From positions 1 through 61,187 of the forward strand of contig JAJCXZ010000083.1 in assembly GCA_029263175.1 (NCBI GenBank): a DNA stretch of 61,187 nucleotides, written 5' to 3'. This DNA is from Acidimicrobiales bacterium (lineage in GTDB: Bacteria > Actinomycetota > Acidimicrobiia > Acidimicrobiales > Aldehydirespiratoraceae). Below, in pieces: positions 16,577-21,066 of this stretch (position 1 is the first letter of the stretch; every line of letters starts with the position of its first letter). The notes below the pieces were generated by a model. The model saw only the letters and a list, made by a program, of their open reading frames with translations, did not search any database and was not told where the DNA came from. The translations under genes and the position numbers were made by a program.

Positions 16577-18298
16577 ATGGCTTCCCATGATCTGATCATC
16601 CGCGACGGCAACGTGGTGGACGGCACCGGTGCACCCGCTCGGCAAGCGGACATCGCCGTACGTGACGGGATCGTGACCGATGTCGGCCGGATCGACGGCA
16701 CCGCAACACGAGAGATCGACGCTGACGGAGCCCTGGTCGCGCCCGGTTTTGTCGACATTCACACTCACTACGATGGCCAGGCGACGTGGGATGACCGTAT
16801 GCAACCATCGTCGTGGCATGGCGTCACCACCGTGGTCTTCGGCAATTGCGGGGTTGGATTCGCGCCGGTGCACGACACCGATCACGGCACGCTCATCGAG
16901 TTGATGGAAGGGGTCGAGGACATCCCCGGCGCGGCGTTGCACGAAGGACTGCAGTGGGGATGGACGTCGTTTGCCGACTACCTCGATGCATGCGACACAC
17001 CGAAGGACATGGACATCGCCACCCAGGTGCCCCATGGGGCCTTGCGGCTCCATGTGATGGGGGAGCGCGGCGCCGATCGCGACGACGCCACCTACGACGA
17101 CATTGTCGAGATGGGACGCCTTGCCGCTGAAGGCATCGAGGCTGGAGCACTTGGTTTCTCCACCAGCCGCACGGCGAATCACCGCACGTCAACCGGTGAC
17201 TTCACTCCGACGCTCACGGCCGCCTCCGAGGAGCTGGTCGGGATCGCTGACGCGGTCGGCCGCACCGGCACCGGCGTCTTCCAGCTGGTCAGCGACTTCG
17301 TCGATCGTGAAATCGAGTTCCAGATGCTTCGCGACATGTGCGCGATCTCCGGTCGTCCCCTCAGCTTCACGATCATCGAGAACCAGCGCAGCGCCGATTT
17401 CCACACGGATCTGCTCGGCCGGATCGAGCAGGCCCGCGCCGACGGATTGAAGATCACCGGCCAGACACCGGTTCGTCCGATCGGCATCCTGCTCGGGTTC
17501 GAATGCACGCTCAACCCGTTCCTTCGGAATCCGGTCTGGGCTGAGGTGGCCGATCTGGCACCCGCCGAAAGGGTTGTTGCCTTGGCCGATCCCGAGCGGC
17601 GGCTGAGGCTTCTGGACGCTGCCGGTGGCTCCGACATGACCGCGGTCGGAGGTCGATTGATCGAGAAGTACGACATGATGTTCGAGCTCGGCGAGTCGCC
17701 CAACTACGAGCCGGATCCCGCCGACACGTTGGCTCGGCGAGCGCAACGGTCGGGCATCTCGCCGGCAGAACTCGCTCTCGACCTACTCTCCGGAAACGAC
17801 GGCACGGCGATGCTGTGGGTGCCGTTCAGCAACTTCGGCAAGGGCAATCTCGACACCACCCGTGATTTGCTGACCCATGCGTTCACGGTTCCGTCGCTGA
17901 GTGATGGCGGTGCTCATGTCGGCACCATCTGCGACGGCTCATTCCCCACGACACTCCTCCAGCACTGGGGCCGTGATCGCGCCGAGGGCCGCATCGAACT
18001 CGAATTCCTGATCCAGCGTCAATGCCGAGACACCGCCCGCACCGTCGGGCTTCATGACCGCGGCGTGTTGGCGCCCGGTTATCGAGCTGACATCAATGTG
18101 ATCGACTTCGAGCGACTCCGCGTTCATCAGCCGGAGCTGGCCTATGACCTGCCCGCCGGTGGCCGACGGCTTCTGCAACGAGCCGACGGTTACCGCCACA
18201 CAATCGTGGCCGGCACCGAGACCTATGCCGACGGTGAGGCCACCGGGGCCCTCCCCGGCCGACTTGTTCGCGGCGCTCAGAAGGAGCCGATCCAATGA
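16577..18298 (+). CDS. N-acyl-D-amino-acid deacylase-type amidohydrolase
   Basis: 573 residues. Metal motifs are HTHYDGQATWD near the N-terminus, the bridging cysteine in FGNCGVGF, and the late SDGGAHVG. LMEGVEDIPGAALHEGLQWGW is common in the long D-aminoacylase group. It probably hydrolyses an N-acyl-D-amino acid or a related amide. It shares only the superfamily core with the protein at 6821. The stop overlaps the start of the dioxygenase gene by four bases (ATGA), which links the two functionally. Confidence 0.85.
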   Translation: MASHDLIIRDGNVVDGTGAPARQADIAVRDGIVTDVGRIDGTATREIDADGALVAPGFVDIHTHYDGQATWDDRMQPSSWHGVTTVVFGNCGVGFAPVHDTDHGTLIELMEGVEDIPGAALHEGLQWGWTSFADYLDACDTPKDMDIATQVPHGALRLHVMGERGADRDDATYDDIVEMGRLAAEGIEAGALGFSTSRTANHRTSTGDFTPTLTAASEELVGIADAVGRTGTGVFQLVSDFVDREIEFQMLRDMCAISGRPLSFTIIENQRSADFHTDLLGRIEQARADGLKITGQTPVRPIGILLGFECTLNPFLRNPVWAEVADLAPAERVVALADPERRLRLLDAAGGSDMTAVGGRLIEKYDMMFELGESPNYEPDPADTLARRAQRSGISPAELALDLLSGNDGTAMLWVPFSNFGKGNLDTTRDLLTHAFTVPSLSDGGAHVGTICDGSFPTTLLQHWGRDRAEGRIELEFLIQRQCRDTARTVGLHDRGVLAPGYRADINVIDFERLRVHQPELAYDLPAGGRRLLQRADGYRHTIVAGTETYADGEATGALPGRLVRGAQKEPIQ

Positions 18299-19308
18299 CC
18301 ATCATCGAGCCCCTCGAGCGACATGCCGAATGGAGTGCGGCAACGATCGCCGACCCCACTGCGTGGAGCCATCGTCTGGGCGACGACGAGATTGCCGAGC
18401 TGGAGGAGGCGCTGGCCGTGGCGCGCAGCCACACCGACGACCTTCTCGATGTCGACAAGTCACGCTTCCCGCTGCCTCGTCTCGGGCAACGGCTCGTGGA
18501 GATGACTGAGGAGTTGATCAACGGCCGTGGGTTCCAGCGCGTCACCGGGCTGCCGGTTGATCGACTGGGCCCCGAAGACTCCTCGTGGATCTACTGGGGT
18601 ATTGGTATGCACCTCGGCATGCCCTGGGCCCAGAACGCGCGTGGCCATCTCCTCGGTGACGTGAAGGACACGGGCGTCACCATGGCGAGCCCAACGTCTC
18701 GGGGCTACGAGATGGCCGGTGCGCTGCCGTTCCATTCGGATGGCTCTGACCTGGTCGGCTTGTTGTGCCTGTCGAACGGCGTCTCTGGCGGCGAGAGCCT
18801 GATCGCCAATGCGCTGCTCTGCCACAACCTGCTCGCGAAGTCGGATCCGGACCTCGCCGCGGTCATGTACGAAGGCTTGCCGTATGACTATCGCGGCGAA
18901 GAAGCCGAAGGTGGTCGGCCGTACTACACGATTCCTGCCTTCACCCGCCACGGTGATCGCCTGTTCATCCGCTATATCCCGCCGTTCATCAAGGCCTCCC
19001 AGCGTCATGAGGGTGCGCCGCGCCTGACTGATCAGCAGGTCGCCGCCATGGCTGCTTATGACGCTCTCGTCGCCGATCCCGCTCATCAGGTGGAGATGAT
19101 CTTCGAGCCGGGCGACATGCAATTCATCAACAACTACCACGTGCTGCACGGTCGCCGAACGTTCGAAGACGACCATGAGGCCGGCAGCGTCCGTTGGCTC
19201 AAACGCCTCTGGCTCGCCACCGACCTGCTCGCCGCCGATGACCGACCCGAGCGCTTCCAAGCCGAGAGAGCGTTTTCGCACTGGAACGAGAAGCGGACCC
19301 GGGCCTGA
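18295..19308 (+). CDS. TauD/TfdA-family Fe(II)/2-oxoglutarate dioxygenase
   Basis: 337 residues. The facial triad is H147 and D149 in FHSDGSD plus H285 in HVLHGRR, where R287 probably binds 2-oxoglutarate. FINNYHVLHGRRTFED is the usual C-terminal signature. Members hydroxylate and so cleave sulphonates, aryloxyacids or carnitine-like compounds; the substrate here is unknown. It is translationally coupled to the amidohydrolase and is followed 21 bases later by the glutathione peroxidase. Confidence 0.85.
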   Translation: MTIIEPLERHAEWSAATIADPTAWSHRLGDDEIAELEEALAVARSHTDDLLDVDKSRFPLPRLGQRLVEMTEELINGRGFQRVTGLPVDRLGPEDSSWIYWGIGMHLGMPWAQNARGHLLGDVKDTGVTMASPTSRGYEMAGALPFHSDGSDLVGLLCLSNGVSGGESLIANALLCHNLLAKSDPDLAAVMYEGLPYDYRGEEAEGGRPYYTIPAFTRHGDRLFIRYIPPFIKASQRHEGAPRLTDQQVAAMAAYDALVADPAHQVEMIFEPGDMQFINNYHVLHGRRTFEDDHEAGSVRWLKRLWLATDLLAADDRPERFQAERAFSHWNEKRTRA

Positions 19309-19329
19309 TCCCCGGCTAGGGTCCTGGCC

Positions 19330-19806
19330 ATGTCAACCTTCCACGACTTCGAGATGTCGTCGCTCGAGGGTGAGCAGGTGTCGTTCTCGGCGTTTGCCGG
19401 TTCCGCCTGTCTCATCGTCAACGTCGCATCGGCTTGAGGCCTTACGCCTCAGTACGCAGGTCTGCGTACGCTTCATCACGATGACAACGGGGTCCAGGTT
19501 CTGGGCTTCCCGTGTAACCAGTTCGGCGCTCAGGAGCCAGGCTCCGCCGAAGAGATTCGCACGTTCGTCAACGACAACTACAACATCGACTTTCCGATGT
19601 TCGCCAAGATCGAAGTCAACGGCGACGGCGCCGCGGACCTCTACCGGTGGCTCAAGTCCGAACAGCCCGGCGCCGGCGACTCCTCTGACCTCGTGTGGAA
19701 CTTCGAGAAGTTCCTCGTGAATGCCAACGGCGAAGTCGTCGAGCGATTCAGCCCGACGGTCACCCCCGAAACGATCGCAGAACAGCTGAGCGACCTGCTG
19801 GGCTGA
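19330..19806 (+). CDS. Glutathione peroxidase, predicted selenoprotein (TGA = selenocysteine 36)
   Basis: 158 residues if the in-frame TGA at 19435-19437 is read as selenocysteine. The codon falls exactly in the catalytic motif: NVASA-U-GLTPQY. The rest of the family is intact in the same frame: FPCNQFGAQEPGS (Gln64), FPMFAKIEVNG and WNFEKFLV (Trp123, Asn124), so the Sec/Gln/Trp/Asn tetrad is complete. The resolving Cys of thioredoxin-type enzymes is absent (V80 in IRTFVNDNYNIDFP), as expected of a monothiol Sec enzyme. Role: reduction of hydroperoxides; in Actinobacteria the reductant may not be glutathione. The gene ends three bases before a CoA-transferase gene. Ordinary ORF calling sees only 19597-19806. 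The alternative is a pseudogene with one nonsense mutation, which the SECIS at 19452 argues against. Confidence 0.85.
19435..19469 (+). promoter_or_regulatory. Bacterial SECIS element next to the Sec codon
   Basis: GTACGC (19452-19457) and GCGTAC (19464-19469) form a perfect six-pair stem with the apical loop AGGTCT. The core GCAGGTCTGC equals that of E. coli fdhF as I recall it. The loop starts 20 bases after the TGA, within the range of bacterial SECIS elements. A second perfect hairpin, TGAGGC-CTTAC-GCCTCA (19435-19451), abuts it and pairs the TGA itself. I see no bulged U in the upper stem, unlike fdhF. SelB would bind the loop. Confidence 0.8.
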
Positions 19807-19809
19807 CAC

Positions 19810-21066
19810 ATGCCCGGGATCCTCGATGGAATCAAGGTCGTCGAGTTCGCGCAGAACGCGGCGGTGCCCTACTGCGGTCGACGCATGGCCGGTATGGGTG
19901 CCGACGTCGTCAAGGTCGAACCGACGGCCGGCGACGCCATGCGCGGGCTGGCGCAGCTCGCCCCCGGTGAAGCCCGTGCCTATGCCGTGATCAACCCCGG
20001 AAAGCGTGGGGTCACGCTGGACCTCGGCCACGACGATGCTCGGCGCGTGGTCGACGCCCTGATCGCCTGGGCCGATGTCGTGCTGGTCGCATTCAAGATG
20101 ACCGACCTGGCCCGATACGGCATCGACTACGACAGGGCCCGAACGATCAACCCGCAGGTGATCCACCTCACTCACTCCCCGTTTGGCCCCGAAGGACCCG
20201 ACTCCGACCTTGGTGGCTACGACGTGCTGGTGCAGGGCCGAAGCGGCGCCGGCTTCACCATGAACCGCACCGAGAACGGTGTACCGATGTCGACTCGCCC
20301 GGCGGTCAACGACTTCGGTACGGGGATTGCTTCGGCGCTCGGTGTTGTGGCGGCTCTTCGGCATCGAGATCTCACCGGTGAGGGTCAGCGGGTCGATGCG
20401 TCCCTGCTCGGCACGGCGATGGCGCTGGCAACGCCCATGGTGACGCACTTCGAGCGGACGGATCCGGCGGCGCTGGCGGTGCTCGATGAGGACCTCGCCT
20501 TGCTGCGGGCGGCCGGCGTCTCGTTCGACGAGCAGCGCAAGGTCTACGAGGAGCGAATCATCCCTGGTGGAGGGGCCTTTGCGCTCTATTTCCGTCACTA
20601 CGCGACATCCGACGGGCTCATTTCCGTCGCCGGGCTCAGTGCCGGGTTGTGGAAGAAGTTCCACGAGGCCACCGGGGTCACCACACCCGACATGCGTGAG
20701 CCGACGAGCGCCGCGTTTCTGGCGATCGTTGATGAGGCCAACGACCTGTTTCGCACCAAGACCACACGGGAGTGGATCGATGCACTGCGAGCGGTGGGAT
20801 TCCCGTGTGGGCCGTACAACATGCCGCACGAGGCAATCAACGACGAGCAGATCCGGGCCAACGACTTCGTCATCGACATCGAGCATCCGTCGTTTGGTCG
20901 CTACTCAACGACCGGCCAGCCGCTGACGTTCAGCGCGGCGCCGGCCGATCCGGTCGGTCCCTCGCCGCGCCTCGGCGAGCACACGGCCGAGGTTCTCGCG
21001 GAGATCGGGCTCGCCGACTCGCTCGACGCCCTGGTCGCCGATGGCGTCGTCACGCTGATGGAGTAG
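19810..21066 (+). CDS. CaiB/BaiF (family III) CoA-transferase
   Basis: 418 residues. N-terminal ILDGIKVVEFAQNAAVPYCGRRMAGMGADVVKVE and PGKRGVTLDL are family hallmarks. The catalytic aspartate is expected in LGGYDVLVQGRSG. GEGQRVDASLLGTAMAL and the C-terminal EHPSFGRYSTTGQPLTFSAAP are also typical. It would move CoA between organic acids, perhaps an alpha-methylacyl-CoA racemase-like relative. It starts three bases after the peroxidase. Its last 17 bases overlap the convergent amidase gene. Confidence 0.88.
   Translation: MPGILDGIKVVEFAQNAAVPYCGRRMAGMGADVVKVEPTAGDAMRGLAQLAPGEARAYAVINPGKRGVTLDLGHDDARRVVDALIAWADVVLVAFKMTDLARYGIDYDRARTINPQVIHLTHSPFGPEGPDSDLGGYDVLVQGRSGAGFTMNRTENGVPMSTRPAVNDFGTGIASALGVVAALRHRDLTGEGQRVDASLLGTAMALATPMVTHFERTDPAALAVLDEDLALLRAAGVSFDEQRKVYEERIIPGGGAFALYFRHYATSDGLISVAGLSAGLWKKFHEATGVTTPDMREPTSAAFLAIVDEANDLFRTKTTREWIDALRAVGFPCGPYNMPHEAINDEQIRANDFVIDIEHPSFGRYSTTGQPLTFSAAPADPVGPSPRLGEHTAEVLAEIGLADSLDALVADGVVTLME

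Follow-up and report, generated by a model that had tools for sequence, protein, structure and literature searches.

The window, i.e. the whole stretch of 61,187 nucleotides that was analysed, contains a glutathione peroxidase (GPx) gene whose frame is interrupted by one TGA, and this codon is predicted to encode selenocysteine (Sec). The following features were assigned, with positions counted in the window:

18295..19308, plus strand: TauD-family dioxygenase gene, upstream (Pfam TauD, E 9.4e-30)
19330..19806, plus strand: predicted GPx-family selenoprotein gene, 158 amino acids with Sec36, stop codon TGA at 19804-19806 (read-through translation, Pfam GSHPx)
19435..19437, plus strand: UGA codon 36, putative selenocysteine at the catalytic position (TGA in 61/110 and TGC/TGT in 49/110 homologous loci)
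19452..19469, plus strand: putative apical hairpin of the SECIS, 14 nt downstream of the UGA, with the stem GUACGCA/UGCGUAC and the loop GGUC (fold, pairs, covariation, fdhF core)
19531..19533, plus strand: Gln68, tetrad residue (Q in 110/110 loci)
19567..19569, plus strand: Val80, position of the resolving Cys (Cys in 0/61 Sec loci and 47/49 Cys loci)
19696..19701, plus strand: Trp123-Asn124, tetrad residues (W and N in 110/110 loci)
19810..21066, plus strand: CoA-transferase family III gene, downstream (Pfam CoA_transf_3, E 2.5e-83)

The frame starts with ATG at 19330 and reads MSTFHDFEMSSLEGEQVSFSAFAGSACLIVNVASA-U-GLTPQY..., with a single internal TGA. In the original prediction this TGA interrupts a GPx frame at the catalytic Cys/Sec. 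Our analysis agrees, as the codon lies in frame and the read-through product matched Pfam GSHPx over its full length (model positions 1-108 of 108, E 2.9e-38). Moreover, 41 distinct sequences of the PDB matched the product at E <= 0.001. Both the full-length domain match and the residues U36, Q68, W123 and N124, the catalytic tetrad of GPx, were found, and the product belongs to the GPx family (PF00255). It falls outside two narrower types, since the scores stayed below the NCBIfam equivalog cut-offs of NF007900 (the best, 163.9 against 270 bits) and TIGR02540 (127.9 against 207.3 bits). A second GPx match at E <= 0.01 was not found in the genome to which the window belongs, a draft of 4.4 Mb in 111 contigs that is 97% complete. 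An antisense open reading frame that overlaps the gene (19333-20886) had no Pfam match. The original prediction expected automated callers to discard the first 35 codons. This has to be corrected, because the first in-frame start (ATG, GTG or TTG) 3' of the TGA is codon 90 and not codon 37, so that a Sec-blind caller would cut off 89 codons or miss the gene altogether. With the next possible start only at codon 90, annotation easily trims or discards genes of this type.

Codon 36 in homologues and the selenocysteine machinery

Homologous loci were collected in two sets. A class-level search of 395 genomes gave a GPx match in 160, from which 30 loci were kept for codon reading, and the second set comprised the 80 best loci found in named genomes. 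At least one genome is represented in both, as L043 and L113. The 110 loci are the nearest homologues and not a random GPx sample. Among them codon 36 was TGA in 61, TGC in 41 and TGT in 8 loci, and nothing else occurred. Thus, the alignment shows only Cys or Sec codons at residue 36, as had been anticipated, and no random stops. Sec-GPx, counted where the listed match had a single internal TGA, was found in at least 24 of the 395 class genomes. Within the family of the window TGA was present in all eight genomes with a GPx match, our own included, while four more listed family genomes were without a match. The closest named relative among the best 80 loci was L049, an Acidimicrobiales metagenome-assembled genome (MAG) with 84% identity, which makes Acidimicrobiia the most likely source of the window. 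Sec forms also occurred in MAGs labelled Gamma-, Alpha- and Deltaproteobacteria and Myxococcales. The description of the Sec GPx as unusual is correct only in part, since bacterial Sec-GPx is already in print and is common among the relatives (8/8 family genomes with a GPx match).

The genes next to the GPx gene were rarely conserved. A TauD gene lay directly upstream in 2 of the 109 other loci (L020 and L024); in L051 it was located about 4 kb farther away on the upstream side, and in L054 it was truncated by the locus edge at 6 kb. Similarly, a relative of the CoA-transferase family III was the next gene downstream, in the same orientation, in 2/109 loci (L091 and L099, 26% and 33% identity), both gammaproteobacterial, where it begins about 440 nt 3' of the Sec codon. 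Most other loci had neither gene within their flanks, whose length varied from 1.5 to 6 kb. Relatives of the CoA-transferase (22-38% identity) were located within 6 kb in 7 of 37 Sec loci and 1 of 43 Cys loci (L057) of the best-80 set, a proximity that may reflect lineage make-up. Hence, the proposed operon with TauD and CoA-transferase stands insofar as both genes flank the GPx gene, but the link was dropped as a functional clue because these neighbours are rarely conserved.

The original prediction called for selA, selB, selC and selD in the genome and named a missing selB or selC as the case against it. All four genes were present above the family cut-offs. The tRNA-Sec (selC) at C30:11354-11445 scored 64 bits against an Rfam gathering score of 47 and was called as tRNA-SeC (tca) by ARAGORN. 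On C75, selA (386 bits, cut-off 268) is directly followed by selB (278 bits, cut-off 242), and selD was found on C3 (355 bits, cut-off 125). The SelD frame itself contains an in-frame TGA (SHGAGUGCKLAPGEL; C3:15979-16917 on the minus strand in our genome, L017:1501-2439), and SelD is predicted to be a selenoprotein too. A hairpin 3' of its UGA, GGCGCA-GGUCG-UGCGCC, has the letters GCAGGTC in common with the GPx hairpin; the fold of 73 nt is only moderately stable (z -1.9, 9/200 shuffles as good).

We further compared the occurrence of selA in 68 of the 395 class genomes, comprising 24 with Sec-GPx, the 24 best-listed with Cys-GPx and 20 listed without GPx. A selA above the cut-off was present in 24/24, 9/24 and 15/20 of them, respectively (Fisher test, p 2e-6 for Sec versus Cys and p 4e-5 for Sec versus all 44 others). 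Since 15/20 GPx-less genomes carry selA, the Sec trait is evidently widespread in this class, which makes co-occurrence by itself a weak argument. GPx is likely one user of the trait among others in this class. In the family of the window, selA was present and a GPx match absent in four genomes (G297, G324, G380 and G388), where other selenoproteins would keep the Sec trait, unless the drafts are incomplete and miss the GPx. Among the genomes of the best 80 loci, selA was detected in 34/37 with Sec-GPx, in both exceptions described below (L057 and L072) and in 4/11 with Cys-GPx (11 of 41 tested). The three Sec-GPx MAGs in which selA was not found were L058, L065 and L090, perhaps owing to MAG incompleteness.

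The SECIS hairpin and the meaning of the UGA

The hairpin at 19452-19469 folds as the original prediction described it, and its ten-base core GCAGGTCTGC, said there to equal that of fdhF, was indeed found in the fdhF SECIS of Escherichia coli K-12 after its UGA. In the window the core occurs once on both strands taken together. Folding of 52 nt (19434-19485) gave -19.5 kcal/mol (z -3.1, 2/200 shuffles as stable), a figure that takes in a second hairpin not kept by relatives. A hairpin at 19435-19451 that encloses the UGA was dropped, as it is absent in relatives such as L026 and L040. When only the window sequence was recoded synonymously, 546/5000 recodings were at least as stable and 123/5000 had all seven pairs, which is not significant. 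The proof of the predicted SECIS is thus comparative, since the hairpin of the single sequence does not greatly exceed what the peptide permits.

A hairpin with at least six of the seven pairs was found in 59/59 distinct Sec sequences and in 0/48 distinct Cys sequences, and GGTC stood in the loop of 57/61 Sec loci and 3/49 Cys loci. The loop G sits 21 nt after the UGA. Codons 41-45 were nearly uniform in the 61 Sec forms (CAG 61, TAC 60, GCA 50, GGT 57 and CTG 57) and varied in Cys forms. Covariation was analysed in 56 distinct rows, where 98.2% of the cells were paired and two pairs were changed on both sides (7 cells). The compensatory changes were G-C to A-U in columns 22-31 (six rows) and C-G to U-A in columns 21-32 (one row). 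The covariation score was reached by 0/500 shuffles, and slid controls scored lower; the number of pair types was not above chance (278 of 500 shuffles). In four gammaproteobacterial Sec-GPx loci (L075, L080, L117 and L122) the top of the hairpin is CGGGTT instead of AGGTCT.

An Rfam scan of 19200-19900 returned three matches, all below the gathering scores and none of them SECIS. The model R1 was built from these same sequences, so that its match to the locus is no independent proof. In a search of the own genome with R1 the next best hit had E 0.07, and the selD hairpin was not listed (150 of 1572 candidates scored). R1 is too GPx-specific for counting selenoproteins.

The fdhF SECIS of E. 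coli resembles the element described here in the ten identical bases GCAGGTCTGC and the GGUC loop. Its distance from UGA to loop is similar, with 18 nt compared to 21 nt in our gene. The fdhF stem has an extra, bulged U and a longer lower part, and the bulged U is important in E. coli. In contrast, the stem found here is a straight one of 7 bp without the bulged U, and this absence counts against the Sec reading.

Two other explanations of the UGA were considered. It might be a nonsense mutation or a sequencing error in an ordinary Cys-GPx, as a single point change makes TGA from TGC or TGT and the window belongs to a draft assembly (111 contigs). However, the identical TGA occurs in 61 of 110 loci of several phyla with frames open on both sides, the hairpin is kept with compensatory changes, and Cys80 is found in none of the 61 TGA forms but in 47/49 of the others. 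We regard a pseudogene as having practically no chance of being correct. Reassignment of UGA occurs in some bacteria, and the codon could accordingly be read as Trp, Cys or Gly, or through general suppression. Against this, codon 36 of the homologues is either TGA or a Cys codon, and the Sec system and the SECIS are present. Moreover, UGA serves as an ordinary stop in this genome, where it ends both the TauD and the GPx gene, and the terminal codon was TGA in 30/61 Sec loci. Such a reassignment is very improbable. Conservation together with covariation led us to reject both explanations.

We are highly confident that the gene encodes a GPx-type peroxidase with recoding of UGA to Sec. In this monomer-type GPx, codon 36 would be recoded by the cell's own SelA, SelB, SelC and SelD. 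By analogy to the E. coli system, SelB with Sec-tRNA would bind the hairpin with the GGUC loop, which lies 14 nt downstream, and bring Sec to the ribosome. The parts of the Sec system are present and conserved, and their action here is deduced from what is known of E. coli.

Absence of the resolving cysteine and the possible reductant

Residue 80 is Val, and the predicted replacement of the resolving Cys was thus found. In the 61 Sec loci this residue was A (41), V (17), I (2) or S (1), and a Cys anywhere within residues 74-90 was seen in only 2/61. According to PMC8614756, both cysteines are present in bacterial GPxs, and animals no longer needed the resolving Cys once they had Sec. The bacterial Sec clade analysed here shows the same absence of the resolving Cys as animals do.

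In the tree, the Sec forms together with L057 and L072 stood on one side of a branch with a support of 99, and the same branch had a support of 95 when residues 36-47 and 80 were masked and four eukaryotic rows added. L057 (6106-6140) and L072 (2367-2401) are Cys-GPx genes without a resolving Cys, both from genomes with selA. Their grouping with the Sec forms is as expected of a reversion from Sec to Cys. Their nesting inside the Sec rows was less sure: L072 was held by starred branches in the unmasked tree and not in the masked one, and L057 in neither. The three state changes would fit one gain of Sec and two reversions, in a tree that is unrooted. L072 matches 15/18 SECIS bases, which is only suggestive of a fossil SECIS and was set aside as a firm claim, since the ordinary Cys gene L107 reaches 14. 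Animal GPX4 and the Schistosoma GPx joined the bacterial Sec clade with a support of 90, which is not enough to choose between one shared and separate origins of animal and bacterial Sec-GPx.

As in the GPx family, the selenol of Sec36 with Gln68, Trp123 and Asn124 would reduce hydroperoxides. Since the enzyme has no resolving Cys, reduction of the oxidised selenium would require an external thiol, as it does in the Sec-GPxs of animals, and direct reduction by a small thiol would be the natural mechanism. The best MshA match in the genome scored 387.7 bits and is below the curated cut-off of 462.5. Two MshC-like proteins scored 429.6 and 405.8 bits with MshC, their best-matching family each time, again below the cut-off (485.1), and the same proteins scored 357 and 340.8 bits with CysS, above the cysS cut-off of 340. 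These two ligases are encoded at L137:41-2682 and L138:1495-2643, and the one that scored 429.6 bits adjoins a true CysS (463.6 bits); they perhaps belong to a divergent mycothiol pathway or are extra cysteine ligases. Given these scores, mycothiol is only possible. A glutamate-cysteine ligase of the GCS2 type had no match in the genome (the search covered GCS2 only; control matches in 5/14 genomes). From the MshA- and MshC-like proteins and the missing GCS2 match we infer that mycothiol, or a redoxin charged by mycothiol, is a likely reductant.

Alternatively, the selenoprotein could use thioredoxin or another protein as reductant, as many Cys-GPxs do, and not mycothiol. As reported in PMC8614756, thioredoxin as well as GSH can serve as reductant of bacterial GPxs, and the mycothiol genes score below the curated cut-offs. 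Besides, proteobacterial Sec-GPxs share the clade, while PMC4935862 describes mycothiol as restricted to actinobacteria. On the other hand, without a resolving Cys there is no internal bond of the type that thioredoxin usually reduces, and PMC9241694 states that actinobacterial proteins annotated as GPx are really mycothiol peroxidases, which has been shown for C. glutamicum. Taken together, we consider a protein reductant quite possible. Our own proposal of a mycothiol-dependent selenoperoxidase is a tentative one, rated slightly lower because the MshC-like proteins pass the cysS cut-off and not that of MshC. A lineage of actinobacteria lacking glutathione might run an animal-type GPx with one Sec on mycothiol. 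The resolving Cys would have disappeared as Sec was gained, in the same trade as proposed for animals, with a return to Cys in two proteobacterial lines.

Relation to known selenoperoxidases

Bacterial Sec-GPx has been described from marine data, with five Sargasso Sea sequences with a bacterial SECIS in PMC1088965 and a table row of 40 bacterial Sec-GPx from GOS in PMC2398784, and a 2026 review (PMC13188914) lists a GPX-like UxxT family. Our gene shares with this family (PF00255/COG0386) the domain, the place of Sec (U-G-L-T) and the SECIS just after the UGA. Unlike the marine sets, which carry no species information in those accounts, it lies in a near-complete genome with Sec machinery. The Sec trait itself has been reported for other actinobacteria (PMC5029168, PMC5330540).

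Animal Sec-GPxs such as GPX4 and the Schistosoma GPx are similar in having Sec naturally (the solved chains carry Cys), the tetrad, A or V at residue 80 and no resolving Cys. Their usual reductant is glutathione. The SECIS of the animal genes is located in the 3' UTR (PMC1088965), whereas here it lies in the coding region. The mycothiol peroxidases Corynebacterium Mpx and Streptomyces CosP are likewise GPx-like actinobacterial proteins. However, they are Cys enzymes, CosP having three Cys (C38, C66 and C84; PMC9241694), while our protein has the predicted Sec and Val at the place of the resolving Cys.

On the sequence evidence, the gene in the window is a real selenoprotein gene that would join a family known before from marine bacteria. 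Its setting may be new, the less usual host being a probable acidimicrobial actinobacterium with MshA- and MshC-like genes and no GCS2-type glutathione gene. The literature search returned no title on selenoproteins of Acidimicrobiia or on actinobacterial Sec-GPx with mycothiol; most subscription papers lie outside such a search, so that absence from print is not implied.

A gene seemingly broken by a stop is thus predicted to encode an intact antioxidant enzyme with selenocysteine at its active centre. The contrast between Sec forms without a resolving Cys (61/61) and Cys forms with one (47/49) provides a natural test of the idea that PMC8614756 states for animals, and L057 and L072, with Cys but no resolving Cys, may show the aftermath of Sec loss. 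If mycothiol is the reductant, this selenoenzyme of the GPx type would stand outside glutathione biology.
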